Below, piece after piece: positions 1,387-37,734 of a stretch of DNA of 37,806 nt (the first letter of the stretch is position 1; the number at the start of each line of letters is the position of its first letter). Both the position numbers and the translations under genes were made by a program. The notes under the pieces were generated by a model, which saw only the letters and a program-made list of their open reading frames with translations, was not told the DNA's origin and made no database searches. The stretch lies in NCBI GenBank assembly GCA_020845635.1, contig JADLFI010000050.1, positions 1 through 37,806 of the forward strand, in the 5' to 3' direction. This DNA is from Bacteroidia bacterium. Its GTDB lineage: Bacteria > Bacteroidota > Bacteroidia > UBA4408.

Positions 1387-1396
1387 AAAAAGAAAC

Positions 1397-4300
1397 TTAA
1401 TCAATAACCGTAACAATGCCCGAACGATGTATAGTTTTACCTTTTATGGAAGTAAAATCAAGCATATATAAATACACTCCTTGAGGTACTTTTGAGCCTT
1501 TATAGGTTACATCCCAGTTTTGCCCCGGAGTAGTAGTTTCAAATATTTTCTCTCCCCATCTATTCCATATAGTAAACTCATAAGTAGCTGCCATATTAAT
1601 AAAAATACCTTTTGGTCCAAAGTTGGGTGAGTGTCCATCAATTACAAAAGCATTAGGAATATATAATACAGGTTCTTGCTCTAAACATATTACATTACTA
1701 TAGCTTTTTTCGGTAAACCCGAATTGATTTCCTGAACCTTCTACAGCTTCAACGTAATAACATATTTTGCCGTTAGGAGGAGTTATTTCAGAAACATCAT
1801 GTTCTATTAATTTTCCTGCGCTGTCAACGGTAGAAATTAGTGATGCATTATGTTTTAAATAATCATCGCACGAATACAAATTATAATGCATAACCTTTCC
1901 GTCCCACTCGCGGTAATCACTCCATTTTAGTTGATTTACGAAGCCTGCCAAAGCTTTTCCTTCAAGCAGTACTGTTGTTCCAATATTACTAATACCGGTT
2001 AAATTTCCACAAGCATCAATAACAAATATCTGATACTCATAGGCAGTTTCCTGGGTTTTAGCACTATTGTCGAAGTGTCGAATAAACTCGTCATAAGTAT
2101 CAATTGTAAATATTCCTAAAGTATCGGTAGTGCCACCCGGTATATTTTTGCGAGTAACCAAGTAACTGTAAATATCGGCAGAAGTGTCAATATAGCATTT
2201 TAGTTCAGCAGTAAAATCATTTTCAACAGTTGCATAGTTTAAATATGTATAATCGGCTAAATCAATAACATTAGCCACAAAGCAAACCTCATTGCTGGCG
2301 GCCGAAATATTTCCCTGTGTACTCAAAGCACGTACATAAAAACAATAGGTAGATGAATTATTCATGTTGGTATATGAGTATTTTTGTGTACTGCCCGAAA
2401 CTGTGGCAGCTAACTGGTAGGGCTGATTATCTTCTTTGACATAAATTAAATATTTGCTGATACCGCTAAACCCAAAATATGGACTCCATATCAAATCAGC
2501 CTTTCCAAGGCAACTATTAATATCTTTAGTCAAAAAAATGGTATGATGCAATACCGTTATATTTCCAACATTGTTACAACTGTCTATAGGAGCAATACCA
2601 TATATTTCAGGCCCATTGCCGGGGCTTGCATTATTGTTGATGTACGATGTGTTATTGAGTCCGTAAACCGTATCAATAGGGACAAGATTTCCATTAATTT
2701 CCTGCATAATCAAATAGGCATAAACCTGATTATCGGTAGAAGGAGCCCAACCTAAACAAACCAACTGGTTGGATAGTATTACACTGGCACTATCCAAAGC
2801 TAAATCCGGTGGTGGTGTGGTCTTTGTAAACAAAGCACTATCTACATTTGACGTAGAAATACAGCCTAATGAGTCTTGTAATTCAACTCTGTATTTTACC
2901 AAAACATGGCAGTTCACAAAATTATCATCATAACTAAAATTAGAAGTTGTTGTAACTTGTGTCCAAGGACCATTGTTTATTTTTTTGTATAATCGATAAA
3001 AAGGGTATGAACTTGATAATGGTGGTGTATGTAGTGCATTCCATGTGACAGTGTAATTATTATTCGATGCCGGCCCAATATCTAAATAAATTGTTTGTAA
3101 GGTGTCTAAGGCAGGAACAAGCACCTTTCCGAGACAGCCCGAACGGGTTTTTACAAAATAATATCTGGAACCTGTATTTGCCCCGGCTCCAACATGCGTA
3201 TAAGTACTTTGGTTATAATTAAAAACACTGTCAACAATGGTATATGGGCCATTGGGGCTTGTAGCACTGTAAATGTGATAACTGTTGAAGGTTGAAGCAG
3301 TATCTTCGGGTATTTCCCAGGTAAGTTCCACATCACCATTAGATAAAACATTGGCACAATGTAATTTTGGGGATTTAACTATAGGTATGGCCTTGACGAC
3401 TATAGTTGCTGTAACTACCGCATAGGAAGGGGCAGGACAATAATCATCACTAAAAGTAAATGTAAATGTATGGGCGTTAAAGTTAGTAATACATTGGTCA
3501 AAAGTTGCCACTTGTTCGCAACTTGTTTGCCAGTTAAAATTTAATGTAAGGGAACCTGTTCCTGTTTGAGGTGGGGGCGGACTGAGTGTAGCACAAGGTA
3601 AAAAATCACAGCCTGCATTGGGATTGGTAAAGTTGTCTCCAAACTGCCCGCCTTGTGCGGTGTAAACTATGCTTTGAGGGAAACCTGTAGGTAAATATCC
3701 ATTATCGGTTCCTGTTATAGAAAATTGCACCACATCACCGGCTGTTACTGTATCAACATAATTGGTGTATTGCCCGGTACTGGTATTAATAAATGGGGCA
3801 GTAACTACCGGAGGAAAATTTGCCCCACACGATAATATGACTGTTTGAATTTCACGATATATTTCAGCAACTTTTTGCCCGCATTTATAGGCTGTTGCTT
3901 TAATTACTTGCACATAGTTGCCAATATTGTAAACAGTAAATGATATTTCGCCTGTTTGACTGTTTAAGACAACCGGAATATTATTGGGATTTTGAGCGAC
4001 ACCGGGAAAAGGATTTTGCATGCTATAGCCCGACTCAAACGGTACCGGAGGCGGATTGCTAGCCGTAAAAGCAGCCCCCGGAGGTAAGTAATCAAGAGGT
4101 ATGTCAAATTCATAGCTGATTGAATCTAAATCAGGGTCATAAGCATTGGGATTATAGGTGTAAGGTGTTTGCCCACAAATTATTATACTTGGGCGTTCCT
4201 GGAAAACAGGTGAGGAATCAAAACAAGGTGAGGCGTTTTGACCATTATAGGCAAACATTTTTGCACGCAAAGTAAACCCATTGGTAGAATTTCCGGGGCT

Positions 4301-4903: not shown

Positions 4904-7879
4904 ATGGAAAAAAAAATCATTTTTATTCTGGGAATTTTGTTCTCTGTTTTTGCTTGCAAAATATATGCGCAAAATACACTTATAACTTCCGAAGACTTTG
5001 AAAGCGGGACTTATATTACCACTTTAAATGATACAGGAATAGCTGCTAATACCGGGTCAAACAAATGGATTATTAATAATTCATACAGTGGTAATGGATT
5101 ATACCCCAATACTATTTCTCAAGACAGTACTGTGGGAGGATTAATTACTCATCCCAACAGTCAGTATTTACATATATACGACTCGGTAAGTGCCGCAAAC
5201 AATGGTGTTTCAAACGCTATATATAATCCCCAAAATGCATCAGATCGATTTACTGTAGTAAAACAGTTTTGTACTTTAGGGTTTAGCGGAGTTACTGTTG
5301 CTTATTACTATTTATGTAAGGGCGATAGTACTAATGCATACGGTCAAACTTATTACAGTATCAATAATGGTGCATGGACTCCTTTTCCCGGTGCGGTTTA
5401 TAGAAATACTAATAAATGGAAATATACCGAGCTGATAGATCCTGTTTTTGATAATAAAAGTAATGTGAGAATAGGTTTCAGATGGACAAACAACAGTACC
5501 AACAGTAACATAAAAACTTCATTTGCAATTGACGATATAAGAGTTGTAGGCAACTTTGATGTTAATATGGTTGGTATTACTATTGATTCGTTAAAACAAG
5601 TTCCGGTATGCCAAAATTTTAATTTCTTAGCCTATTTTTCATTAAGTAATCCTTTGTGTGGTAGTGGTTTTTACCAGATAGAATTAAGCAATGCTTCAGG
5701 TAACTTCAATAATCCAACCAGTTTAGGAATTTATCAATTAAACAATCTGAATATTCACCCTGTATTGTCATTAAACATTCCTGCCAGTACACCTCCCGGA
5801 GTTTGCTATAAGATAAGGATTACACGTATTGATGTTACCCCAAATGTGGTTAGCATGGTTAGTAATTGCTTTGAAGTGTTGCATTGCGGAAATACCGTTA
5901 CAACGCTTGAACCCGTCATGTTATCAAACCCTCTTGATACAATTTGTGTAGGTAGTGTTATTGATATTCCATTCTTTTCTACCGGGGTTTTCGTTAATAA
6001 TACTTATGTAGCTCAATTGTCTGACTCGGCCGGAAATTTTCCGCCTAACCCAAATGTTTTAGGAACATTTCCTAACTCCAACACTTATGACCCTGCCTTA
6101 GGTTCATTACCGGGTAATGTATCAGGTTTACTCAGCCCTTTGTTTCATCCTATACCTCCGGGATGTAATTATTACATTCGTGTAATATCTATTAATCCAA
6201 GCGCTATTGGAAGTGTTTATGGTCCTTTTTGTATCAGGAATTGCGATATTCTTACTAATGACCATCAGGATATAAAAGCATGTATTACTACTACTACGGG
6301 GTATGATACTACTTGTACAATTCAGGTACACCAATACGACTCAAATGCTGTGTATAACCCCGGAAATGAGTTTAAATTACAGTTGCTCAGCAGCATGACA
6401 TTTTCTGTGGTAAATACAGGTGGTTTGGGGTCTATTGAAGCTACCGGTGATACAATTATGCCTGTAAGTATTCCGGATTTAAATGGTTTAATGGCTTTAG
6501 GTTTAATGCCCGGCTTATATTATGCCAGAATAATAGCTACAAACAGCTCTAATATGTGGAATAGTTTAGGAACATTAATTAGAGTAGTAATAGGAGCACC
6601 TGAAGATGTTCCTTTAGGAGTATATGCTTACAATCCTACTAACTTTACCGGTTTTATTCCTGTTGGCGATTCAACCATTTGTTTAGGGTCAGCAATTTAT
6701 TTCACAATGTTACCTTATAATAGTAATTCAAGCTATGTGTGGACTTTAAATAACCAAACTAATTGGAGTACAGATCAATATACAGGTGTATTGTTTAACC
6801 AAACAGGAAATTTTTACATGAGTGTGGTCGAGACCAATTATGGATGCGTAGGTCCGGGTTCAGATACAGCCAAGATAACTGTTATTGGGCCGCCATCAGT
6901 TACCGTCTCAGGCCCCAATCAGGTTTGTGTTGGTGATACAGCAACGTTTAACGGTATATTGCAGAATAATACCTATTACCATTGGAGTACAAGTAACAAC
7001 GGACAAATTATAGATACTTTGAATAATATTACAAATATTTATTTCCCCAATACAGGTTCGGTACCGGTCTATTTGCACGCTGTAAATAGTTGTGGAGTGG
7101 CTAATGGTACAAAAAATATTATGGTGCGGCCTTTGCCAACGGTTGACGCAGGCAATGATACAACTATATGCCCCGGAATTCCTTTTACGCTTTCCACACC
7201 TGCCGGCAGTAACTATAATTATTATTGGATGGTAAATGACTCAACCTTTGCAACTACCCAAGAAACATTTGTTATCCCTGACCAAACAACAACCTACACT
7301 ATTAAAGTAACAAGCTTTGGGGCACTTGCCTGTAAAGGACAAGATTCAATAACAATAAGCTTAAAAGCACCCGGCTCAAGCTCCTATACCGATAGTACCA
7401 TTTGTGAGGGCGATCTAATACGATTAGATCCCGGAAGCGGAATAAATTATGTTTGGAATACCGGTTTTGAAGGGCAAATACTGGAGGTTAACCAACCGGG
7501 TACTTATGTAGTTGTTTATAACGAGTCAGCAGGAATTTGCTCTTCAAAAGATACCTTTAATATTCAAACCAAATACTGTGAAGAACCATTGCCCGATTCG
7601 CTCTTTGTGCCTAATGTATTTACAGTTAATGGCGATGGCTTAAACGATAAGTTTCGTATTTTCAATACAAATTATCAATCGCTGGAAGTTGTTATTTACA
7701 ACCGTTGGGGACAAAAAGTAGGCTATTGGAATGGAATTGACGGAGGTTGGGACGGAACACATATTGATAGTGGAAAAAATTGCCCCGATGGAGTGTATTT
7801 TTATGTTGGAAATGCACAAAGCAAAAATAATATTCCTCCTAAAGAGATTCATGGCACGGTTACTTTAATACGAAAGTAA
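4904..7879 (+). CDS. Large secreted protein with PKD/Ig-like domains and a gliding-motility (CHU_C) C-terminal domain
   Basis: The 991-residue product has a signal peptide (MEKKIIFILG to about residue 22, ending IYAQ). An N-terminal domain at about 28-215 carries SEDFESG and looks like a jelly-roll adhesion module. Long beta-rich middle regions follow. Two PKD/Ig-like modules lie at about 660-830 (GPNQVCVGDTATF and DAGNDTTICPG are typical of Bacteroidota PKD-like repeats). The C-terminal CHU_C domain begins near PNVFTVNGDGLND, contains YNRWGQKV and GVYFYVG, and ends GTVTLIRK. This is the type B sorting signal for the type IX secretion system. It is the second such protein here, transcribed away from the first across a 159-base spacer. 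It is probably cell-surface or secreted. No catalytic motif is visible. Confidence 0.85.
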   Translation: MEKKIIFILGILFSVFACKIYAQNTLITSEDFESGTYITTLNDTGIAANTGSNKWIINNSYSGNGLYPNTISQDSTVGGLITHPNSQYLHIYDSVSAANNGVSNAIYNPQNASDRFTVVKQFCTLGFSGVTVAYYYLCKGDSTNAYGQTYYSINNGAWTPFPGAVYRNTNKWKYTELIDPVFDNKSNVRIGFRWTNNSTNSNIKTSFAIDDIRVVGNFDVNMVGITIDSLKQVPVCQNFNFLAYFSLSNPLCGSGFYQIELSNASGNFNNPTSLGIYQLNNLNIHPVLSLNIPASTPPGVCYKIRITRIDVTPNVVSMVSNCFEVLHCGNTVTTLEPVMLSNPLDTICVGSVIDIPFFSTGVFVNNTYVAQLSDSAGNFPPNPNVLGTFPNSNTYDPALGSLPGNVSGLLSPLFHPIPPGCNYYIRVISINPSAIGSVYGPFCIRNCDILTNDHQDIKACITTTTGYDTTCTIQVHQYDSNAVYNPGNEFKLQLLSSMTFSVVNTGGLGSIEATGDTIMPVSIPDLNGLMALGLMPGLYYARIIATNSSNMWNSLGTLIRVVIGAPEDVPLGVYAYNPTNFTGFIPVGDSTICLGSAIYFTMLPYNSNSSYVWTLNNQTNWSTDQYTGVLFNQTGNFYMSVVETNYGCVGPGSDTAKITVIGPPSVTVSGPNQVCVGDTATFNGILQNNTYYHWSTSNNGQIIDTLNNITNIYFPNTGSVPVYLHAVNSCGVANGTKNIMVRPLPTVDAGNDTTICPGIPFTLSTPAGSNYNYYWMVNDSTFATTQETFVIPDQTTTYTIKVTSFGALACKGQDSITISLKAPGSSSYTDSTICEGDLIRLDPGSGINYVWNTGFEGQILEVNQPGTYVVVYNESAGICSSKDTFNIQTKYCEEPLPDSLFVPNVFTVNGDGLNDKFRIFNTNYQSLEVVIYNRWGQKVGYWNGIDGGWDGTHIDSGKNCPDGVYFYVGNAQSKNNIPPKEIHGTVTLIRK

Positions 7880-7981
7880 CTGATGCTGTGTTACACGGTA
7901 GATTCCCAAAAAAACAGTTGGCTTTAAAAGCACACCTATTTTTTTAAAACACCATAATATTATTTTGCGACTGTAGTTTCA

Positions 7982-8055
7982 AAGCTTTATTCAACCTGCC
8001 AAAGGCAGTCAGGCACAGGATTAAATCGAAACTTCGTTTAATTACGATATGTTAC
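7982..8055 (+). repeat. Dispersed intergenic hairpin repeat, copy A
   Basis: The segment AAGCTTTATTCAAC, then ACAGGATTAAATC, CTTCGTTTAAT and ATATGTTAC recurs in the same order at 31031-31089. This copy has 19 extra bases (7996-8014) containing a small perfect hairpin, CTGCC-AAA-GGCAG. The ATTAAA/TTTAAT arms can form an imperfect hairpin. It lies in the gap between the large secreted protein and the Crp-type regulator. Function is unknown; it is probably a genome-wide interspersed element. Confidence 0.6.
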
Positions 8056-8061
8056 ATGAGG

Positions 8062-8091
8062 TTGATATATTGATAATATAGTTTATATTTG
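8062..8091 (+). promoter_or_regulatory. Bacteroidota-type promoter of the Crp/Fnr regulator gene
   Basis: TTG at 8062-8064 and TATATTTG at 8084-8091 fit the -33 TTG / -7 TAnnTTTG pattern with a 19-base spacer. Transcription would begin near 8097-8099. This argues for the ATG at 8112 as the start rather than the upstream GTG at 8103. Confidence 0.6.
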
Positions 8092-8111
8092 ACACTCATA
8101 GTGTGTATTTT

Positions 8112-8699
8112 ATGAATAGCAGATTATCGTTAATTAGAGCAAATATTGAAAAACTGATTGTATTGTCGGATAGTGAGTTTGATACTTTCAGTAAATATTT
8201 AGTTCTGCGAAATATTCCTAAGAAGCATAAATTTCTGAGTGCCGGTGAAGTTTGCAATTATACCGGATTTATAACTTCGGGCTGTTTAATTACCTATACC
8301 ATTGATGAAAACGGAGCAGAACATGTAATACAATTTGCGGTAGAAGATTATTGGATTGGAGATTTATATAGTTTTATAACCGGAAGCGAATCTGCTTATA
8401 ATATTGAGGCCACAGAAGATACAACGGTATTGATTATTCATAAAAATGATTTAGAAAAGGTATATGAACAAATTCCCAAATTTGAACGTTTTTTCAGAAT
8501 ACTTGTGCAAAGAAGTTATGTGGCACTGCAACACCGTATTACTTTAAATCAGCGAGGAACGGCACAAGACAAATATGAGAACTTATTACAAAAAATAAAA
8601 GGCATTGAACTGCGTTCTACCCAAAAGCATATAGCTTCGTACATCGGTATAACCCCCGAGTCGTTAAGCCGTTTAAAGAGAAAACTTCATAATAAGTAG
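8112..8699 (+). CDS. Crp/Fnr-family transcriptional regulator
   Basis: The 195-residue protein (from the ATG at 8112) has the two-domain form usual for Bacteroidota Crp/Fnr proteins. An N-terminal cyclic-nucleotide-binding-like beta roll covers about residues 20-130 (LSAGEVCNYTGFITSGCL, then ENGAEHVIQFAVEDYWIGD). A C-terminal winged helix-turn-helix spans about 160-195 (QKHIASYIGITPESLSRLKR). The strict cAMP-binding residues of E. coli Crp are not evident, so the ligand is unknown. It stands alone, with its own promoter upstream and a converging gene downstream. Targets cannot be deduced. Family confidence is high. Confidence 0.9.
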   Translation: MNSRLSLIRANIEKLIVLSDSEFDTFSKYLVLRNIPKKHKFLSAGEVCNYTGFITSGCLITYTIDENGAEHVIQFAVEDYWIGDLYSFITGSESAYNIEATEDTTVLIIHKNDLEKVYEQIPKFERFFRILVQRSYVALQHRITLNQRGTAQDKYENLLQKIKGIELRSTQKHIASYIGITPESLSRLKRKLHNK

Positions 8700-8711
8700 T
8701 CCTTTTTAGAT

Positions 8712-8727
8712 AAGCATAAATGTGCTT
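8712..8727 (+). terminator. Weak hairpin between converging genes
   Basis: AAGCA (8712-8716) and TGCTT (8723-8727) form a 5-bp stem with a 6-base loop, followed by an AT-rich run ending in TTTT. It sits in the 52-base gap between two converging genes, where a terminator is expected. The stem is short. Confidence 0.25.
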
Positions 8728-8751
8728 TATTAATAATATTTTGAAGCTCAG

Positions 8752-9282
8752 TTAAGGCTTATTAAGTCTGTTTTTCATTATTTTTAATAACTGTAATGCT
8801 TCATCTTCGGTTAGTTGCAAACCTACAGCCTCGTCTTTATTTTCATAAGTAAAAAAAACAGTTTCTGCACCCATGCTCCAATAGTAGGGTTGCACACGTG
8901 CTTGTACCTTTCGGTCTTTAAAATTAACTACACGCAGATTGCTGATTAATTTGCTATTATAAATTTTATCAATACCTCTGCCGTTAACATCTCTGCGATA
9001 AACAAAGCCATTTTCGTTAAACAGAAAAATTTCTTTCCCATTTCTTCTCCAAGTCATGAGTACACTGGCTTTATATTCAAAGAATGCCCAAAACGCCATC
9101 CAAATAGCATACCACATTTTCTCTTCACGCGAACTATTAGTAAAAAACTGACTAAAAACAACTATTCCGCTAATGGTCCACAAAACAAACCATACCATCA
9201 ATATTTTAAACTTTGTTGTATCAGTAATAGAAGGAATTTCTAAGGTTTTTCTGTCGCTGCTAAGCTGCACTCTGTTTGACAT
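8752..9282 (-). CDS. Small inner-membrane protein with two membrane segments and a PH-like tail
   Basis: The 176-residue protein has two transmembrane helices close together (about residues 28-48, MVWFVLWTISGIVVFSQFF, and about 57-77, WYAIWMAFWAFFEYKASVL). The remaining roughly 100 residues form a soluble beta-rich domain. The arrangement resembles YcxB/PH-like membrane proteins, but no diagnostic motif was recognised. It follows ispH on the same strand after 47 bases and may be read from the same transcript. Function is unknown. Confidence 0.65.
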   Translation of the reverse strand: MSNRVQLSSDRKTLEIPSITDTTKFKILMVWFVLWTISGIVVFSQFFTNSSREEKMWYAIWMAFWAFFEYKASVLMTWRRNGKEIFLFNENGFVYRRDVNGRGIDKIYNSKLISNLRVVNFKDRKVQARVQPYYWSMGAETVFFTYENKDEAVGLQLTEDEALQLLKIMKNRLNKP

Positions 9283-9329
9283 AAGGTAAAATTAACTATA
9301 TTGAGGAGTTGAAATATTTTTCCCTATCA

Positions 9330-10235
9330 CTATGGATGAGAATCAGATAAAGTTAAATCAGTATTAATTTTTTCGATAACTTTTTTTACATTTTCCATCA
9401 ACCACATAGGAGTTGATGTTGCGCCACAAATGCCAACCGTTTGGGCATCGGTAAACCATTCGGGACTTAATTCAGAAGCCTCTGAAATAAAATATGAGCG
9501 TTCATTTTCTGCTTTACACGTATCAAACAAGGCTTTTCCGTTAGAGCTTTTCTTGCCGCTAACAAAAATAACAACATCATGCTTTAAAGCAAAGTTTCGC
9601 AATTGAGGCTCACGGTTACTTACCTGTCGGCATAAGGTATCGTTAGATTCAAAAAGCATATTTGGGTCGCCACCGGCTTGTTTTATTCTTTTTTCTATCT
9701 GTAGTACAAGATTACTAAAGCCTTTAGTACTTTTTGTAGTTTGCGAAAACAAACGTATTGGTCGTGTATAATCTATTTTATCCAAGTCTTCTTCAGTCAT
9801 TACTACTATGGCTTTGCCTTTAGTTTGACCAACCAATCCGTTAACTTCGGCATGTCCTTCTTTCCCAAAGATTACCAATTGACCACCATCATTCTCTGAG
9901 GTTTCAAAACCTTGACGAACTCTGTTTTGCAGTTTTAACACTACAGGGCACGAGGCATCAACAAGTTCAATATTGTTTTCTGCAGCTATCAAATATGTTG
10001 AGGGAGGTTCGCCATGTGCGCGAATAAGCACCTTTACATCTCTTAATTGACTTAATTGCTCATGCGTAATTATTTCTAATCCTTTTGCTCTTAGTCTATC
10101 CACTTCCATATTATTATGAACAATGTCTCCTAAACAATATAGTTTTCCCCCTCCGGCCAACTCATCTTCTGCCATTTGAATGGCATATACCACTCCAAAG
10201 CAAAAACCTGAATTTGCATCAATATTAACTTCCAT
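9330..10235 (-). CDS. ispH: 4-hydroxy-3-methylbut-2-enyl diphosphate reductase
   Basis: IspH (LytB) catalyses the last step of the MEP isoprenoid pathway, reducing HMBPP to IPP and DMAPP with a [4Fe-4S] cluster. All three cluster cysteines are present: C12 in GFCFGV, C96 in DASCPVV and C202 in NDTLCRQV. The substrate-binding residues H40 (DIVHN), H74 (RAHGEPP), H128 and E130 (GKEGHAEV) and the SSNG motif near 230 are also present. The length of 301 aa is close to the usual size. The gene lies downstream of cmk and an MFS gene on the same strand. The cmk-ispH neighbourhood is familiar in Bacteroidota, with the MFS gene here between them. The cytosolic enzyme is expected to be essential. Confidence 0.97.
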   Translation of the reverse strand: MEVNIDANSGFCFGVVYAIQMAEDELAGGGKLYCLGDIVHNNMEVDRLRAKGLEIITHEQLSQLRDVKVLIRAHGEPPSTYLIAAENNIELVDASCPVVLKLQNRVRQGFETSENDGGQLVIFGKEGHAEVNGLVGQTKGKAIVVMTEEDLDKIDYTRPIRLFSQTTKSTKGFSNLVLQIEKRIKQAGGDPNMLFESNDTLCRQVSNREPQLRNFALKHDVVIFVSGKKSSNGKALFDTCKAENERSYFISEASELSPEWFTDAQTVGICGATSTPMWLMENVKKVIEKINTDLTLSDSHP

Positions 10236-31030: not shown

Positions 31031-31089
31031 AGCTTTATTCAACACAGGATTAAATCAAAGCATAGCTTCGTTTAATCCCTATATGTTAC
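31031..31089 (+). repeat. Dispersed intergenic hairpin repeat, copy B
   Basis: Shares AGCTTTATTCAAC, ACAGGATTAAATC, CTTCGTTTAAT and ATATGTTAC in order with copy A at 7982-8055, without its 19-base insert. Here the core folds well: GGATTAAATCAAAGC (31047-31061) pairs with GCTTCGTTTAATCC (31065-31078) over 13 bp with one bulge and one mismatch. Its right end (GTTAC) coincides with the start of the cassette's left inverted repeat. Confidence 0.65.
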
Positions 31090-31099
31090 CACCAGTGCT
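31085..31099 (+). repeat. Left inverted repeat of the cassette
   Basis: GTTACCACCAGTGCT; pairs with 37672-37686 with 14 of 15 positions complementary. Overlaps the last 5 bases of hairpin repeat copy B. Confidence 0.6.
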
Positions 31100-31203
31100 T
31101 CCTTGCCTATCGTGGTTTGTCAGTCTATATGTTAATGCTTTTTTCATTGTCTTTTGTTGTGCGGTGGCTTATTTTTTAAAATTTCTTTTTCTCTTCGGTT
31201 GGC

Positions 31204-31272
31204 TTTGCAAGCTCTTTGACAAAGCTTTGGTCTGAGGGTCGGCTTGTGCGGCTATGGCAATGTGCTTGCAAA
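31204..31272 (+). other. Structured noncoding left end of the cassette
   Basis: Perfect 9-bp inverted repeat TTTGCAAGC (31204-31212) / GCTTGCAAA (31264-31272) enclosing a smaller CTTTG-A-CAAAG palindrome (31214-31224) and the G/T-rich motifs shared with the right end. It lies just beyond the helicase stop and could act as a transcript end or a recombination structure. Confidence 0.45.
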
Positions 31273-31294: not shown

Positions 31295-33133
31295 TTACCA
31301 TTCATCTTCATTTGTTTGATTAATTTCTACTGTCGATGCCATAGATTTATATCGCTTAAAAATTTCCAAACTGTCTTTAATTGCCTCATACTCTTCGTGG
31401 TCTCTGAGTTCCTCATCTATTATGTCAAATACCTTGTAGTTGGAGATTACAAAGCATTTTTTAATGGCTCTTGTTATAGCCACGTTCAATCGGTTAGGGC
31501 TATAAAAAAAGTCCAACCTTCTCATTGATAATAGTGGATGAGAATTTGCAAAACTGTATATGATATACTCTCTTTCTTGCCCTTGCATACCATCAACTGT
31601 GTCAACTAGCATGGTGTCAAATGGCTTTGAGATAGATTTTGGCAGTATCTTTTTAACTTCATTTTTTATTTCTCTTACTTGGGCACGGAAGGGAGATATA
31701 ATGCCAATGTCTTTTATGTTTACACCATTCAGTAAAAGGTCTGACACTAATTCTGCAACAAGTTTTGCTTCGTGAGGTGAACGATGATTTCCATCAAAAA
31801 CATTATGCAGAATCAGTTTATGAGATTCGCTGTTCAAAATTTCAGGATGATGTTTACCTTGATACCTTGTATTATCTTCCTGAGTTGTAGATGAAGATTG
31901 AAGCAAATCTTGATAAAATAACGTGTTCGGAATTTTAATTAATGACTTATTCAATCGATAGGAAGTGTTCAGAAGGTTAATTTCGTTACGGTAAATTCGT
32001 GCTAATCTGCTAAAAATAGATTCAGCAAACATTTCATTATTTGATCCTTTTGGAATTATGGGGTCAAGTTGCTTATGGTCACCCACAAAAATATATTTCC
32101 CGGTTCGGCACATTGCCGCAATTGATAAAGGAATACTTAATTGTGCAGCTTCATCAATAATACACACATCGAATTTCCAGCCGTCCAATTTTTTACTTCC
32201 CGGATAGCAAAGTGAGTATGCAGTTGAACCGATTGCAATTCCTTTTTGACTGAAATTAGTGTTGTTTATATACCCAGAATAAGTTACCCGAGATTTCTTT
32301 GCGACAAAGGGATTCTCTTGTACTTCTTTGTTGCTTGCTTTTTCACCAATCTTGATGACTTTTGTGTTGTCCTTTATTTTTGATGCAATTGCATTAAGAC
32401 AGTTATTAATAGCAGTATGTGTTGGTGCTGTTACGAAAACCTTTAAGCCAGAATCAACAAGATAATTAACAATATTTCCAATAGTTTCTGTTTTCCCTGT
32501 ACCTGGAGGCCCTTGAATTATACAAAAGTCACTTGCATTGATGGCTTTTAAGTAAGCTGTGTTCTGAGAATCGTTAAGATATCCTAATTTTTGCGAATAG
32601 CCTTGGAAGGAATTTTTGGTTTTGCCATTTAAGAAGTTTTCAATTTTTTGAAGCGTTGCAGGATTGTTTTTTAATACGTCAGCAGCGGTTAGTAGTAATT
32701 TCGTTCCGATATCAACTTTTTCTGTATTTATCTCCCAATTGTTTTTTGGGTACGTTGCATATTCAATATAACATGAGCTTACATTAAAATCATTCGGTTT
32801 TAAAATGAAGTTTTCCGTACTATCTTCTTCAACCTCCATTATAAATTCCCTGCTACCATAACTTAAACGAACTGGATTGCCCTCTTTAAACTTTGAGATG
32901 TTGTTGTCACAAATAACTTTAACTGATGAGATATACCTCTGCGATGAAGGTAATGGATGACACCACTGATTTGGCAAGCCTTCGAAAAACTCCATTTCAA
33001 CACGGAGATTAGTCATTGTTACTCCTTTAGCAACCCTTTCGTCTAATGGTAATCTTTGTTGCTCTTCAAAATCCTGAAGGTTTTTGGTAAGTTCAATTTG
33101 AATTGCTGCTTCAAATTCTTTTAGTAGGTCCAT
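31295..33133 (-). CDS. Upf1/Dna2-like superfamily 1 helicase
   Basis: The 612-residue, compact SF1B-type helicase has a complete motif set: Q-motif region near Q190, Walker A GPPGTGKT (208-215), APTHTA (Ia, 236-241), Walker B DEAAQ (327-331), GDHKQLDP (III, 351-358), SYR (391-393), VDGMQGQE (V, 513-520) and NRLNVAITRA (VI, 547-556). The N-terminal 180 residues include a beta-rich region, probably the nucleic-acid-binding stalk/barrel domain of Upf1-like proteins. It should unwind DNA or RNA with ATP. It is the last gene of the reverse transcriptase operon and starts 1 base after the nuclease gene, so the two are likely to act together, as a split version of nuclease-helicase fusions such as Dna2. 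Confidence 0.93.
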   Translation of the reverse strand: MDLLKEFEAAIQIELTKNLQDFEEQQRLPLDERVAKGVTMTNLRVEMEFFEGLPNQWCHPLPSSQRYISSVKVICDNNISKFKEGNPVRLSYGSREFIMEVEEDSTENFILKPNDFNVSSCYIEYATYPKNNWEINTEKVDIGTKLLLTAADVLKNNPATLQKIENFLNGKTKNSFQGYSQKLGYLNDSQNTAYLKAINASDFCIIQGPPGTGKTETIGNIVNYLVDSGLKVFVTAPTHTAINNCLNAIASKIKDNTKVIKIGEKASNKEVQENPFVAKKSRVTYSGYINNTNFSQKGIAIGSTAYSLCYPGSKKLDGWKFDVCIIDEAAQLSIPLSIAAMCRTGKYIFVGDHKQLDPIIPKGSNNEMFAESIFSRLARIYRNEINLLNTSYRLNKSLIKIPNTLFYQDLLQSSSTTQEDNTRYQGKHHPEILNSESHKLILHNVFDGNHRSPHEAKLVAELVSDLLLNGVNIKDIGIISPFRAQVREIKNEVKKILPKSISKPFDTMLVDTVDGMQGQEREYIIYSFANSHPLLSMRRLDFFYSPNRLNVAITRAIKKCFVISNYKVFDIIDEELRDHEEYEAIKDSLEIFKRYKSMASTVEINQTNEDEW

Positions 33134-33134
33134 G

Positions 33135-34985
33135 TTATATTTTTACTTTTAGTGAGTTTAAAATGATGTTAGTTTCTTTTTTCATCAAAGGTACATCCAC
33201 CACATGGTAGTCTGTGTAGTTTTCGTGTAACACTATTAACTTCATTGATGATATTTTCATAGCATATTCCGTTTCAGCAATATGCTTATAAATGTTCTGT
33301 TGTAGACAGTATCTATTGAAACTTGAATTATCTAATGAGCTTAATTCTGATAAGGCGTAGCCATATCCGAAAATTCTTGGTCGTCCATCAATAATTAGTT
33401 TTTTACTTCTCTTCCAGTCTAGCATTACATATTCGTCTTTATTTTCTTTTTTGAAAAGACAATCAATGGTTCCTGCAACATTATACTTGTCAGAGAAAAT
33501 CATTCTTTCCGCATCAAAGAACAGTAGGTTTCTTGGTTTTATTTCTTTGTTATAAAAATCTAGGAATAATTCAAACTCCTTTGAGTCTGAATCAAACTCG
33601 TTTTGCTTAAGAAAACATTCGATTTGATTATGCAGATATGTTCCTTTTTCAGCAGCTTCATCTCGCATTAATAGATACTCGTCCAATACATCTTCCTCTG
33701 TTCTGTTTTCTTCTTCCGCTTTTCGTTCAATATATCTCTTGAGGTCAAAAGGAAAAAATCGTTCGATTAGAGTCGTTACAGAGATATACTCGGCATTACC
33801 AGTTTCATCTTTTGGATGTACATATTTGTGTGATTCTTCGTCAAATGCTATACTGCTATTCCAACCATCAAATTGAAATCTCTTAGTTCTCTGAATTACA
33901 TTTTCTACACTTTCCGTTTCCGAAGTATCTATTTCAATTTCCTTGTAACTGTATTGTTTTTGAAATCTTTCAATTCCAAGATATTTTTCACGGTAGTAAA
34001 TCTTTTGCCATTGTATGCATTGATTGTAGTCCCATTGATTTTCTCTGAAACAAGTTGTATCGGTTTTAAAATTTCGATTGTATATTGAGTTAAGAACATT
34101 CTTTACATAGTCAATACATTCGTAGGGCTGAGTGTGAACTTGCTTTTCAGTGAACCGTATTACTATCCATCCGCTTTCGGTAAAAAATAAATCTCTGATG
34201 TTATCTTGTTTTATTTCATCCTCAGGATTAATGAAATGGGTTGGATATCTGTAATAACCATCATAGGGCTCATCTATTTCAATGTCAATGTACAAGTTTA
34301 GATTTTTATCGAACAAAACGATATCTGGTTCATATGGCTTATTAAAATTAGGTATTACCATATGAACATTATTAGTCATTTCAATGCCCGTGATATTTTG
34401 TTTTAGCTGATTATAAAAGTCACTCTCCTTGTATCCCTTTTGATTAGAACGTCCATTTCTAGGCAGTTTTAAAATCGTATTACTTTTAGGCATTTTAACG
34501 ACAGGGTAAAGGTATTGCTCGTCTTGTGCGAAATGACTATTAGGTTCAAATAATATTCTTAAGTCATCTGTTTGCTCTAGATTAGGTTCTGACTTGATGA
34601 TTTGTTTAGTAAACTCTCTCGGACTTTCTTCATCTTGCCTAGGTTTTATCTTACCTGTTGGTTGTTGACTTTTATCACTAGGTTGTTTTGTTTTATTTTC
34701 CTTTCCTGTACTTTGCTTTATCGGGCTAGCTTCTTTGTTTATGGTTTTATATTCTTCATAAACTTCTAATGGCTCTTGTACAACTGTTAGTGTTTTTTTA
34801 TTGGACTCTTTTAATTTTTTTTTCTCGTGTTTATGTTTTGCCCAATCTTGTTTTATTTCTGTAAAAAACTCACTCTTTTTTTCTTTGCTCAGTTGTGCAG
34901 GTGACGTAACGCCATAAAGTTCCATCTTACCTAAAAAGAAGGCTCTATACTCTTTCTGTAATTCAGATAGCTTTCTTTCGTTCAT
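33135..34985 (-). CDS. Protein with two PD-(D/E)XK-like nuclease domains
   Basis: The 616-residue protein has three parts. Residues 1-130 are helical and then very Lys/Gln/Ser-rich and probably disordered. At about 185-300 a DUF559/Vsr-like fold shows E187, PD at 220-221 (EPDIVLFD) and a YIDIEIDEP strand (232-240) followed by GWIVIRF; a canonical D/E-x-K is not obvious, the strand reading IEID. At about 395-590 a RecB/Cas4-like domain shows LHNQIE (H452), GTIDC (D508), LDWKRSKK (D523 and K525) and QxxxY (Q562-Y566), the full motif set of active RecB-type exonucleases. It starts 48 bases after the small HEPN-like gene and precedes the helicase by 1 base. It probably cuts or trims DNA in concert with the helicase. 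Confidence 0.8.
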   Translation of the reverse strand: MNERKLSELQKEYRAFFLGKMELYGVTSPAQLSKEKKSEFFTEIKQDWAKHKHEKKKLKESNKKTLTVVQEPLEVYEEYKTINKEASPIKQSTGKENKTKQPSDKSQQPTGKIKPRQDEESPREFTKQIIKSEPNLEQTDDLRILFEPNSHFAQDEQYLYPVVKMPKSNTILKLPRNGRSNQKGYKESDFYNQLKQNITGIEMTNNVHMVIPNFNKPYEPDIVLFDKNLNLYIDIEIDEPYDGYYRYPTHFINPEDEIKQDNIRDLFFTESGWIVIRFTEKQVHTQPYECIDYVKNVLNSIYNRNFKTDTTCFRENQWDYNQCIQWQKIYYREKYLGIERFQKQYSYKEIEIDTSETESVENVIQRTKRFQFDGWNSSIAFDEESHKYVHPKDETGNAEYISVTTLIERFFPFDLKRYIERKAEEENRTEEDVLDEYLLMRDEAAEKGTYLHNQIECFLKQNEFDSDSKEFELFLDFYNKEIKPRNLLFFDAERMIFSDKYNVAGTIDCLFKKENKDEYVMLDWKRSKKLIIDGRPRIFGYGYALSELSSLDNSSFNRYCLQQNIYKHIAETEYAMKISSMKLIVLHENYTDYHVVDVPLMKKETNIILNSLKVKI

Positions 34986-35033
34986 ATGAGCTAATTATTT
35001 ATTTTCAAGTCACTAATAATTATATTCCATTAA

Positions 35034-35669
35034 CTATTTAGGCACTTTATTTTCACCCATCACCATATGAGAAAACGCAATCAATGAATGTTTGAAGCAT
35101 TGAATAATAACATCTCTCCATTTGTTGCACTGAGAATTAGATATTCTTTTTGGAATTCTAATCCCATCCTTTTCTTCGGTTTGTATGTGCTGAAAAGCAG
35201 ATCGAATTTGATATATATTCTTGAAGTTTTGTCCGATCTCTTGTTCAATTCCACCCTTACCTATAAGATAATTGTAAACATCGGTTTCTTTTATACCAGC
35301 ATACGTTTTAGGTATTGATTCACCTTTATCAATTTGAATATACTTAAGCAAAAAGTTATCATAGCATTTAAGCGCACTATCTGTCCATCCTTTTATTTTT
35401 CTGCCCCAGATATGCTTCACGGTTGGGCAGTGCTCCAAACAGTCTTTAGCATTTTCATTTGAAGACTGATAATAAGGCGAACCCAGCCATTGTTTTAAAT
35501 TCAGTTGCAATTCGCTTTCAATAATGTCTTTTGTCAGATACTCTACAAATTGATTGTTAAGCTCATTTAGTAAGTCTTTAACGTCTGAAGTAATGTAGTT
35601 AAGTTGATATTCCGGGGTTGAAGCACCGGAAAAAGATTGCATTGTATTTCTTATTTCCGTAAACTTCAT
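35034..35669 (-). CDS. Small operon protein with a HEPN-like R-x4-H motif
   Basis: The 211-residue, mostly helical protein was not recognised by overall sequence. In the C-terminal half, after a helix QEIGQNFKNIYQI, it carries R156-SAFQ-H161 at the start of a further segment, then a last amphipathic helix WRDVIIQCFKHSLIAF. R-x4-6-H late in a helical domain is the active-site pattern of HEPN ribonucleases and nucleotidyltransferase-linked toxins, but Ser rather than the usual polar Asn/Asp/His follows the Arg, so the call is tentative. Its ATG overlaps the reverse transcriptase stop (ATGA), indicating translational coupling and probable complex formation or stoichiometric production. It could be an RNase effector or a structural partner. 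Confidence 0.6.
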   Translation of the reverse strand: MKFTEIRNTMQSFSGASTPEYQLNYITSDVKDLLNELNNQFVEYLTKDIIESELQLNLKQWLGSPYYQSSNENAKDCLEHCPTVKHIWGRKIKGWTDSALKCYDNFLLKYIQIDKGESIPKTYAGIKETDVYNYLIGKGGIEQEIGQNFKNIYQIRSAFQHIQTEEKDGIRIPKRISNSQCNKWRDVIIQCFKHSLIAFSHMVMGENKVPK

Positions 35670-37384
35670 AATCCCATTTGTTTAACAAGTTCATCTATAG
35701 TACTAACAAGATTAGTATCCTTTTTCCAATAGTCCAGTGTTATCAATTTCAAGTAATTATTCGCTTCCTTAGAGAGCTGTACTCGTAAGGTTGATTTTAA
35801 TTGTTGGTCATCAGAATGTTTAATAAGCATGCAGTATAGAGCATAGCGAACTAATTCTGAGTTTTCAGCTTTTAGATATTTGAAAAACACTCTAAGTTCC
35901 CTGTCAGAATACCTGAAATTGTAGGTAAGGCATGTAATGATGTGATAGCGATAGCATTCGTAATTTTTATCTGCTTTGTAAATTGAAATAAGTTCTTCTC
36001 TCAAAGTCCCATTATCCTTGTAATGCTGAAGCGTTAAAATATAATTACTTGCCCTCCAATAAAATTTCTTCAAAGCGAAAAGCCAGTATTGCAGAAGATT
36101 ATCTGATGCTTTGACTTGCTTGTATTCAGAAAGTGAACGAACTGCTGTGCCGTATTTGGCACTTAAACGAATGAAGTCAATATCATCCGTTTTTTCAGGC
36201 TCAGCCAATTCAAGTGAATCATTTTTAAAAAGACTAGGTAGTTCAAGTTCAACATCGCTGATTTCTTTTTCCCAAAAAGCAATAATTTTTTCAGGGTCAG
36301 TAATGTTTTCTAATTGTTTTTTAGCATCACTTTCATCATGTTCTTCGGGCGATTGTTCGCTTAAACCGAGTAATGATTTTATGATGTTACTTTCTAGTCC
36401 ACCTTCAGAAAGCTCAGTAAAAAAAGATTCATCCTCTGTATAATCGTTTCCTATAACTTCAAATCGTCTGAGTTCTTTTACCGTTTCATCTTCTTTGGCT
36501 GTGTCAATGGCGGTTATACCTGTCTTTTTTGAATTAATAGAAAGACCATGTCCTTTTAAATAATTGTCAATATGGACTAACACATTTCTCAATTCGATTT
36601 CAGAATATCCATAGATTTTGATGTCGTCCATGTAGCGATAATACTTGAAAGCTTCGCTTATCAACTCCTTGTCAAGTGGATATAAAAGTAAGTTTGCTAG
36701 GAGATAGGAAGGCTGTGGCCCTTGTGGTATTCCAACACCCGGAGTGCTGCTTTCTTTAGTCCCCGACCATGCATTCAGGCAAACCGAAAGTAAGTCCAGA
36801 ATTTCATCCTCCACACCAAAATGAGTACTTAGTGTAAAAAGCAAATTGTAGTGTGGTATGGAATCAAAAAAACCTGTTATATCTGTTTCGAACTTGTGTG
36901 TTGCCTTGTCTTGCTCTATAGCTTTTATTACAGAGTCTTTGAACCTTACAAATAAGGATTTCCAAAACTTGAAAAAGAAATATTTCGGATTTTCTTGTTC
37001 GAGTAATTCAGCACCTTGTCTTGTTTCTGGCATTAAAACTGAACCAAATACAAAATCATCATGCTCTGCCAACAATTCATAATTTCTTGCTGCTATCACA
37101 TTTGCAATAGCTTGGTATACTAAAGCATCTTCAATCATCAAAAGCGTTTTTGTCCTTTGTGTGCCTGATGATTTTGGCTCGTAATATTTAAAGCCACGTT
37201 GGGGTGAATACTTTCCGACTATGAGTTTTTCTGAAAGTTGCTTTAAGTTTTTATCCAGTTGAGCACCAAAGGCATGTATTCCAAAACGGTCTTTCACTAA
37301 CCATTCAGGCCAGCATACTATTCTGTAATAGGCTAGTTTAAGGTTGTCAGTACTGAAATATGTTTCTAATGTTCTATCACTCAT
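35666..37384 (-). CDS. Defence-type (UG/Abi-like) reverse transcriptase
   Basis: The 572-residue protein has fingers-palm motifs of a prokaryotic reverse transcriptase: RT1/2 region RTKTLLMIEDALVYQAI (77-93), motif A TDITGFFDSI (D168), motif B GIPQGPQPS (218-226), catalytic YMDD (251-254) and a motif D-like GHGLSINSKKTGI (278-290). There is no maturase/HNH domain of group II introns, no retron-type ncRNA arrangement evident, and no DGR-type motif. After the palm comes an acidic linker (about 295-395) and then roughly 180 residues of short helices (e.g. ELRVFFKYLKAENSELVRYALYCMLIK) resembling the alpha-helical repeat extension of Abi/UG reverse transcriptases. It is the first gene of the four-gene operon. 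It probably makes cDNA or untemplated DNA in anti-phage defence. Which UG class it belongs to cannot be told by eye. Confidence 0.88.
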   Translation of the reverse strand: MSDRTLETYFSTDNLKLAYYRIVCWPEWLVKDRFGIHAFGAQLDKNLKQLSEKLIVGKYSPQRGFKYYEPKSSGTQRTKTLLMIEDALVYQAIANVIAARNYELLAEHDDFVFGSVLMPETRQGAELLEQENPKYFFFKFWKSLFVRFKDSVIKAIEQDKATHKFETDITGFFDSIPHYNLLFTLSTHFGVEDEILDLLSVCLNAWSGTKESSTPGVGIPQGPQPSYLLANLLLYPLDKELISEAFKYYRYMDDIKIYGYSEIELRNVLVHIDNYLKGHGLSINSKKTGITAIDTAKEDETVKELRRFEVIGNDYTEDESFFTELSEGGLESNIIKSLLGLSEQSPEEHDESDAKKQLENITDPEKIIAFWEKEISDVELELPSLFKNDSLELAEPEKTDDIDFIRLSAKYGTAVRSLSEYKQVKASDNLLQYWLFALKKFYWRASNYILTLQHYKDNGTLREELISIYKADKNYECYRYHIITCLTYNFRYSDRELRVFFKYLKAENSELVRYALYCMLIKHSDDQQLKSTLRVQLSKEANNYLKLITLDYWKKDTNLVSTIDELVKQMGL

Positions 37385-37397
37385 TATTTCAAAATCT

Positions 37398-37405
37398 CAA
37401 AGTTA
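37398..37405 (-). promoter_or_regulatory. Candidate -7 element of the reverse transcriptase operon
   Basis: On the minus strand this reads TAACTTTG, matching TAnnTTTG, 13 bases before the ATG. No -33 TTG is apparent. If used, the leader is very short and the upstream hairpin would not be part of this mRNA. Confidence 0.35.
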
Positions 37406-37431
37406 AAATTTGTTACGTTGTGCGATGGTAA

Positions 37432-37496
37432 AAACGGCTCTTTTGGTTTTGCGAAGCATTGGCTTTGTGTGTCGGGCAAAACCAAATGTGCCGTTT
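37432..37496 (-). other. Long hairpin upstream of the reverse transcriptase; candidate noncoding RNA or recombination structure
   Basis: AAACGGC (37432-37438) pairs with GCCGTTT (37490-37496), and TTTGGTTTTGC (37442-37452) with GCAAAACCAAA (37476-37486). That is 18 Watson-Crick pairs separated by a 3x3 internal loop, with a 23-base apical loop. It starts 48 bases upstream of the reverse transcriptase ATG. Several defence reverse transcriptases use a noncoding RNA encoded next to the gene; this is the only strong candidate here. Transcription is not shown. Confidence 0.45.
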
Positions 37497-37671
37497 GTGC
37501 GGCTGGTTAAAAGAAATTTTAAAAAATGCGAAGGGTCGGCTTTTTCCTTTTTCTCTGTCACCTGTCCCAACAGCAAAACACGGTCAGCTTGTTTGTCTGT
37601 CCGCTTGGTCGATATGATCTGTATGTCGAGTCCATTTTTAGTCATTGTCTTGCTGTGTCGTCTGTCTTTTT

Positions 37672-37686
37672 AGCATTGGTGGTAAC
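37672..37686 (-). repeat. Right inverted repeat of the cassette
   Basis: AGCATTGGTGGTAAC; its reverse complement GTTACCACCAATGCT matches the left copy at 31085-31099 except for one A/G difference. Confidence 0.6.
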
Positions 37687-37734
37687 GGCAGTCTGTCTAA
37701 TAACTTCCTTTCTCCGTTAATTTCTTTCACTAAT

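Follow-up and report, generated by a model that had tools for sequence, protein, structure and literature searches.

Two probable modules in one Bacteroidia operon: a UG19-like reverse transcriptase with a HEPN-like partner beside a nuclease-helicase pair

The window analysed here is the whole 37,806-nucleotide stretch of contig JADLFI010000050.1 (Bacteroidia bacterium, assembly GCA_020845635.1), and its element of interest is a four-gene operon on the minus strand (31295-37384) encoding a reverse transcriptase (RT), a HEPN-like protein, a two-domain nuclease and a superfamily 1 (SF1) helicase. Judged from comparison with related sequences, the locus very probably consists of two modules lying side by side, an RT-HEPN pair and a nuclease-helicase pair. 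What is new in the four-gene locus is the way in which two modules are combined, and it does not amount to a new machine; its two-gene core is already catalogued as a pair in PADLOC. The best overall explanation, to which a probability of about 0.55 was given, would be a split AbiA-like abortive RT-HEPN unit serving as a second line beside DNA-targeting defence modules.

A first-pass annotation, made from the letters of the sequence, had described four intact co-directional genes of a composite antiviral system. The genes were confirmed, free of internal stops and with junctions, in operon order, of -4 (ATGA overlap), 48 and 1 bases. Homologues of all four proteins exist elsewhere (RT 37-90% identity, HEPN 21-82%, nuclease 32-73%, helicase 24-61%), which argues that the four genes are not a product of chance. 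Upstream of the RT gene, 422 bases remain before the end of the contig.

Constant pair and exchanged neighbours

Relatives were gathered from the species genome collection by one scan with an alignment of three RTs, which gave 20 loci (L011-L030). L013, identical to L012 over 19,716 bases, was not counted as distinct, which gives 20 distinct loci with the window. L016, L028 and L029, whose RT is truncated by the contig end, were left out of the HEPN counts, and the downstream DNA ends early in L011, L016, L028 and L029, where the presence of the nuclease-helicase pair was not assessable. Hosts were Bacteroidota, many of them metagenome bins, except for one Ignavibacteria bin (L026). The RT was rare, being found in 3 of 395 class genomes, and the UG19 model matched 3 of 395 phylum genomes (own genome included in both).

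A HEPN-like gene lay directly 3' of the RT in all 17 distinct loci with a complete RT, as defined by open-frame clustering, and an ATGA overlap joined the two genes in every one (for rows listed with a gap of -16, an ATG 12 bases inside yields the same ATGA). The co-occurrence of the four genes in other genomes, proposed as a check in the first-pass annotation, was thus borne out for the HEPN-like gene (17/17 testable loci); nuclease plus helicase were seen beside the RT in the window only, four of the other loci ending early downstream. When 375 class genomes were searched in reverse with the PADLOC model RTas1465, solid matches came from two of them (G000, G273), both adjoining the RT, and a third match was weak and partial (G205, 58 positions, E 8.6e-5). 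On plasmids, ten records with RT relatives were obtained, eight of group II intron type and none spanning 80% of the query, while the HEPN protein of L002, used as query instead of that of the window, had no plasmid match. RT relatives were found neither in phages nor in viral contigs (two-pattern scan).

Neighbours of the pair were exchanged among close copies. RTs of L011, L012, L014 and L026 were 85-90% identical to the window RT and formed one clade with it (support 99/98); the pair was followed by a DNA methylase (L011), a sacsin-helicase (L012), HsdM-HsdS-NOV_C (L014), NOV_C (L026) or the nuclease-helicase pair (window). DNA identity within this clade (76-90%) ended near the HEPN stop codon, and the genes differed beyond it. 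Between L014 and L026, the RT-HEPN pair was 90% and the NOV_C gene 88% identical, with HsdM and HsdS intervening only in L014.

Restriction-type genes stood beside the RT-HEPN pair in 16 of the 20 distinct loci, window included (Table 1). The defence context proposed earlier is supported. Pfam was run on part of the neighbouring genes, picked by size and adjacency, and the remaining labels come from clustering, among them HsdM before the RT in L017, HsdM and HsdS of L024 and NOV_C of L019. L029 was NOV_C-like by clustering, its own Pfam scan giving none; the sacsin match of L030 was below cut-off, and the NOV_C gene of L026 consists of two overlapping frames. N6-methylase genes were present in the fetched flanks of 7/20 loci (L014, L017, L018, L019, L020, L024, L028), against 0.38 expected from the density in 10 genomes that were not randomly chosen (33 methylase genes, 34.9 Mb) (P ~5e-8 if loci are independent; 1e-6 with related loci merged, 5/11).

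Junctions to the methylase, NOV_C or sacsin-type neighbour measured 16 bases or less, or were overlaps, in L014, L017, L018, L019, L021, L028 and L029 (longest open frames), and were larger in the window (48), L012 (62), L022 and L026 (both ~145). In L017, RT-HEPN was embedded within HsdM...HsdM-HsdS, the junctions measuring 1 and 7 bases. GHKL (MORC-type) proteins were connected in 2008 with the helicases and nucleases of restriction-modification (R-M) operons (PMC2292703), so that neighbours of sacsin type are in keeping with restriction. In L022, a relative of the N-terminal domain of the nuclease lies upstream, and L012 and L017 have a distant SF1 helicase; nuclease plus helicase stood beside the RT in none of the 19 other loci, four of them ending early downstream.

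Table 1. Variable neighbours of the RT-HEPN pair
Locus	Neighbouring genes
Window	Nuclease-helicase after the pair
L011	N6_N4 methylase
L012	Sacsin domain and SF1 helicase; McrBC-type genes upstream
L014	N6 methylase upstream; HsdM-HsdS-NOV_C downstream
L017	HsdM upstream; HsdM-HsdS-sacsin-helicase downstream
L018	NOV_C and Eco57I-type methylase
L019	PLD-SNF2 helicase and Eco57I/TaqI_C methylase upstream; NOV_C downstream
L020	HsdM-HsdS-sacsin, divergent
L021, L030	Sacsin-type
L022	Hsp70-like and UvrD-like (weakest case)
L023	SNF2 helicase and Eco57I methylase, divergent
L024	HsdM, GmrSD, HsdS, divergent
L026, L029	NOV_C
L028	HsdM

Other genes were also observed around the pair. A phage-integrase-type gene adjoins it in L025, and in L015 (11413-13644) the pair is followed by a protein with a DnaB C-terminal domain and by a second reverse transcriptase (363 residues). 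The island of L012 contains a second HEPN, the Swt1-like domain of a DUF499 protein that is encoded with McrBC-type genes upstream of RT-HEPN (480-3782).

Reverse transcriptase and HEPN-like protein

The RT matched Pfam RVT_1 (E 3.8e-19) and PADLOC RT_UG19 (E 8.5e-116; next UG group 1.3e-50, a ranking made for the window RT only), and its YYRYMDD was intact, so that the earlier assignment to the UG/Abi type holds. RT_UG19 was matched by the RTs of 17/17 distinct loci, and the catalytic aspartates D168, D253 and D254 were kept in 18/18 aligned rows. A retron was considered and rejected: the best profile was UG19, the retron St85 model, with 43.4 bits, stayed far below its cut-off (235), and the window had no Rfam match at gathering score.

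An RT domain (residues ~1-300), a poorly predicted segment (303-361) and a helical C-terminal domain (~364-569) made up the predicted layout, with ten helices within 401-569 in the AlphaFold model (predicted local distance difference test, pLDDT, 77.9). Among the 50 matches listed for this model, the longest structural alignments (399-452 residues) were those to AbiA (Z 19.6, 399 residues), DRT6 (18.5, 430), DRT4/UG15 (17.8, 427) and AbiK (17.8, 446); the others covered 307 residues at most, including group II intron, diversity-generating retroelement and DRT9 RTs, whose Z scores were higher or alike. The predicted structure thus carries the C-terminal alpha-helical repeat domain by which UG/Abi class 1 is defined (PMC13174585).

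UG19 as modelled may contain more than one system, because the RT of L004, which scored 547 bits against RT_UG19 (window RT, 386 bits), adjoins no HEPN relative that could be found; in this genome (L004/L008, G454) the next gene encodes a 232-residue protein. The RTs studied here may form a HEPN-bearing subclade of UG19. Literature searches found no functional study of UG19 or of the RT_UG19-RTas1465 pair, and the one relevant paper that they gave for UG19 was PMC8934634. With HEPN encoded by a gene of its own, UG19 becomes a testable case.

The HEPN-like protein had been named as such in the first-pass annotation, and the name is supported by the R156-X4-H161 motif and the predicted fold. The protein matched RTas1465 (E 5e-12); Pfam gave nothing over cut-off and NCBIfam nothing at all, and RNase (ribonuclease) activity is putative. 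RTas1465 was matched by 17/17 HEPN-like proteins of distinct loci. In the AlphaFold model (pLDDT 79.8), the motif sits at the end of helix 141-160, and R156-H161 thus agrees with the rule given for HEPN domains in PMC3710099, by which an RX4-6H motif is found where helix 3 ends. The RX4-5H motif was kept in 14/17 distinct rows, with His in 17/17 and Arg in 14/17. In the clade of L020, L023 and L024, the arginine is replaced by leucine and the histidine retained, and RNase activity may have been lost there because of this change.

The first 22 VIA matches of the HEPN model comprised 16 HEPN-fold chains (best Z 8.9), five gp41 bundles and one BAR domain at similar Z; AbiA was absent among the matches, which is uninformative either way. 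Foldseek gave no match at E 0.001 or better for the model, and a PDB sequence search with the HEPN alignment gave no convincing relative.

Proposed mechanism and alternatives

In the mechanism proposed, the first module, a helical-domain UG19 RT with its constant HEPN-like partner, would be an abortive-infection unit. The second, nuclease plus SF1 helicase, would be a DNA-degrading unit that attacks invading DNA and stands in for the restriction subunit after HsdM-HsdS, a role that is putative. Upon failure of the second module, or upon an infection signal, RT-HEPN would act and the cell be stopped, the release being presumably triggered by the failure of the neighbour. The RT may perform untemplated, protein-primed DNA synthesis by analogy with the helical-domain Abi RTs AbiA and AbiK, which make untemplated DNA, with a tyrosine as primer in AbiK (PMC11077055, PMC9508834). 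The HEPN-like protein could cleave RNA, hold an RT oligomer together, or both. Sequence comparison carries the two-module structure, the constant pair, the partner exchange and the intact active-site residues, and structure prediction the architectures; confidence in the mechanism is modest.

This reading is supported by the constant pairing in 17/17 loci through the same junction, together with partner exchange among close copies, and by methylase enrichment and tight junctions to restriction-type neighbours. Support also comes from the alignment of the RT along its chain with AbiA, AbiK, DRT4 and DRT6, from the mostly kept HEPN motif, from the nuclease-helicase pair following HsdM-HsdS in L081, and from the precedent of PrrC as presented in PMC3710099.

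Several observations weigh against it. No restriction-type neighbour was seen in the DNA fetched and scanned for L015, L016, L025 and L027 (4/20), so that the pair may act alone, and the operon of the window contains no methylase. Residues 10-67 of the RT, the expected site of an AbiK-type priming loop, have no invariant tyrosine; the invariant tyrosines of the aligned RTs are at 9, 68, 90, 248, 249, 251, 258 and 455. The motif arginine is missing in L020, L023 and L024, and the HEPN Z scores of 8-9 are under the caution level for helical bundles, unrelated gp41 bundles reaching 8.1-8.4. PMC11077055 reports no RNase activity in vitro for the fused HEPN of AbiA, though this domain is required for polymerase activity. 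Finally, the placement of a nuclease-helicase pair beside a RecE-like gene on a phage is as compatible with the DNA metabolism of phages as with defence.

More tentatively, the RT-HEPN pair might be a plug-in suicide fuse, that is, a mobile two-gene unit wired to nearly any DNA-targeting defence, which would sense the failure of its neighbour via untemplated DNA and then release HEPN. The range of neighbours that this would have to serve spans type I systems, other methylase systems, sacsin-helicase, NOV_C and nuclease-helicase.

It is rather doubtful that RT and HEPN make up a single polymerase complex in which HEPN is structural, untemplated DNA is the antiviral product and the neighbours are merely island genes, although this is not fully exclusive with the second-line abortive unit preferred here. 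In AbiA, HEPN makes the dimer, and its deletion abolishes polymerase activity (PMC11077055); the loss of the motif arginine in 3/17 distinct rows and the constant 1:1 pairing with ATGA overlap also agree with a structural HEPN. The motif is nevertheless kept in 14/17 rows and its histidine in all, yet AbiA retains its motif too. Retron-Kva2, according to PMC13405049, is an RT system whose HEPN RNase is toxic, and the enrichment and tight junctions of the neighbours exceed what a loose island would give.

Cassette ends and leader

The operon lies between inverted ends (Table 2). Exact copies of GTTACCACCANTGC in the window and its genome were limited to two, at 31085 and 37686, which are inverted relative to each other, and the end pattern with one mismatch showed no genome enrichment over a reversed control (9 vs 6). 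Homology to L011 and L026 begins one base ahead of the left copy, and in L026 both ends flank RT-HEPN-NOV_C. In L096 and L097, leader sequence of 218-269 bases lies ahead of type I R-M operons as well, the left end standing before HsdR-HsdM-HsdS (L096) and HsdM...HsdS...HsdR (L097, one mismatch); no RT was present within the 13 kb fetched at these two loci. Most of the leader was therefore read as cassette end. An RT-specific non-coding RNA or template in the leader was rejected, with no Rfam match and the leader shared with type I operons where no RT appeared.

Parts of the right-end element matched 30/198 class genomes (own included) at E 0.001, mostly over 20-80 bases, and matches longer than 120 bases were found in three other genomes (G144, G079, G139). 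Nineteen other right-end copies were fetched and 10 of their upstream genes scanned, of which three were clearly restriction or defence genes (Eco57I/TaqI_C methylase, HsdS, AIPR), two possibly defence genes (MZB, DUF1016_N) and five without a family over cut-off. L042 and L043 looked PIWI-like and type III-like, respectively, by eye; as no Pfam family was matched at E 0.01, neither is claimed. Taken over the window (31080-31230 and 37540-37686), L026, L096, L097 and L041-L059, such ends bracket or adjoin defence operons with differing cargo in several Bacteroidota genomes.

No transposase or integron integrase was tied to the inverted ends. Integron integrase TIGR02249 was over cut-off in 0/8 genomes, with weak pieces in 8/8 and in 14/14 controls (per-piece scores); hairpins and conserved ends exist, and inspection by eye showed no GTTRRRY core. 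About 130 bases outside the left end of L096 (G130:C33), a 91-residue frame resembles the C-terminus of a tyrosine recombinase, of which a pattern search in the 4.4 kb fetched (L098) found no fuller copy.

Such ends could mean that a mobile cassette carries the two pairs as independent cargo, linked functionally only by a shared promoter, which is unlikely. The inverted ends common to the window and L026, the left end before type I operons without RT in the DNA fetched, and the right-end parts beside varied genes all suit loose assembly; the embedding of RT-HEPN in L017 does not, and the repeated association with one broad neighbour class suggests more than shared transport.

Table 2. Features of the window
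Feature	Position	Strand	Remarks
Right cassette end, inverted copy GTTACCACCAGTGCT	31085..31099	+	same arrangement in L026
Right-end element downstream of helicase	31080..31230	-	part of a dispersed sequence
SF1 helicase	31295..33133	-	612 residues; starts 1 base past nuclease stop
Two-domain nuclease	33135..34985	-	616 residues; starts 48 bases past HEPN stop
Predicted C-terminal RecB/Cas4-like nuclease domain	33138..33644	-	residues ~448-616; RecB/Cas4 label by eye
Predicted N-terminal DUF559/Vsr-like nuclease domain	33966..34508	-	residues ~160-340; Vsr label by eye
HEPN-like partner, PADLOC RTas1465	35034..35669	-	211 residues; motif R156-S-A-F-Q-H161
ATGA stop/start overlap of RT and HEPN genes	35666..35669	-	common to 18/18 rows (17 distinct loci) with both genes
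Reverse transcriptase, UG19-like	35666..37384	-	572 residues
Leader, ~300 bases upstream of RT	37390..37687	-	common to L011, L026 and partly L016
Leader hairpin	37432..37496	-	21-nucleotide arms, 90% complementary
Left cassette end GTTACCACCAATGCT	37672..37686	-	

The nuclease-helicase pair

The helicase was of SF1 type as annotated before (Pfam AAA_11, E 1.4e-28; AAA_12, E 4.4e-38), with Walker A GPPGTGKT and DEAA present; its closest family was TIGR00376 (IGHMBP2 family) at 200.8 bits, below the cut-off of 348.9. The nuclease of the window had no Pfam family over cut-off, with DUF559 matches of its N-terminal domain staying below it (E 0.016), and nothing over other curated cut-offs. A homologue in L083 matched PDDEXK_1 (23.1 bits, cut-off 22), and the phage homologue of L087 matched PHROG exonucleases (E 6e-25).

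The double nuclease of the first-pass annotation rests on motifs and has weak support from profiles; two predicted catalytic blocks recurred in five aligned nucleases. Invariant residues were D221, E236-I-D238-E239, H250 and R264-D265 in the N-terminal block, and H452, G505, D508, D523-W-K525, Q562 and Y566 in the C-terminal one, except that K525 is E in L082. Matches to the nuclease were obtained in 10/390 class genomes at E 1e-8 (own included), six of them to the N-terminal domain only.

The nuclease-helicase pair occurred without an RT at three places. In L081, it formed HsdM-HsdS-nuclease-helicase, with 52% identity to both window proteins and the helicase cut by the contig end, and this genome was not among the RT matches of class genomes. 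In L083 the pair stood alone at 30% identity, and in L087 (IMG/VR) it followed a RecE-like gene at 69% and 59% identity. L082 has the nuclease with no helicase adjoining. In the type I-like operon of L081, nuclease and helicase occupy the place where HsdR would be expected, and no classical HsdR was seen in L081 or L017. A nuclease-helicase pair in an HsdR-like position after HsdM-HsdS, and also on a phage, is described here.

That the cassette has captured a phage-type pair for recombination or DNA processing, and not a restriction unit, is quite unlikely. In favour of this reading is the contig of L087, where RecE-like exonuclease, two-domain nuclease and SF1 helicase are consecutive (5375-9567) and a major head protein (E 3.8e-28) is encoded as well. 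Against it, the pair of L081 comes directly after HsdM and HsdS, and defence genes are also carried by phages.

Least probable is the composite four-gene machine of the first-pass annotation, in which complementary DNA synthesis would feed or license a split nuclease-helicase with HEPN as RNase: co-directional genes, short junctions and inverted ends around the operon make co-expression likely, but the combination was seen in 1/20 distinct RT loci (four ending early downstream), the nuclease-helicase pair exists without the RT, and RT relatives at 85-90% identity have different partners.

Comparison with known systems

The first-pass annotation had not recognised the combination as a described system, which is true of the four genes and not of their core. 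RT_UG19 and RTas1465, candidate DRT entries of PADLOC-DB 2.0.0, correspond to the same pair (17/17 RTs and 17/17 partners), being models without mechanism. Moreover, fused RT-HEPN (AbiA) in operons with R-M was listed in 2013 (PMC3710099).

Type I R-M systems with a split restriction part resemble L081 (HsdM-HsdS-nuclease-helicase) and L017 (HsdM-HsdS-sacsin-helicase), whereas the window operon has neither HsdM nor HsdS. The exchange of partners around the RT-HEPN pair can serve as a natural experiment to learn how restriction and RT-based abortive infection are connected.

AbiK, DRT4 (UG15) and DRT6 have the same RT and helical domain (425-452 residues aligned at 11-14% identity, among the matches listed). 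Each of them works as a single protein and is not known to have a HEPN partner.

PrrC/PrrI and other HEPN genes of R-M operons share the HEPN gene in or beside HsdM/HsdS operons and the second-line logic that has been proposed for them. As described in PMC3710099, HEPN genes are embedded in R-M operons and a block of restriction sets the PrrC toxin free; in place of an RT, PrrC has an ABC ATPase. The type IX retron (retron-Kva2) likewise joins an RT system to a HEPN RNase effector (PMC13405049), with a retron RT and multicopy single-stranded DNA (msDNA) in place of the helical-domain RT found here.

The closest characterised relative is AbiA of Lactococcus, which has the same three domains (RT, helical and HEPN) and whose HEPN domain was compared with sacsin and HEPN toxins at Z 8-9 (PMC11077055). 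Its motif is RX6H, against RX4H in the present protein, which has no Pfam match. AbiA is fused in one protein, whereas HEPN is a separate gene in 17/17 distinct loci, and this makes the roles of RT and HEPN separable in a way that is impossible in the fused protein.

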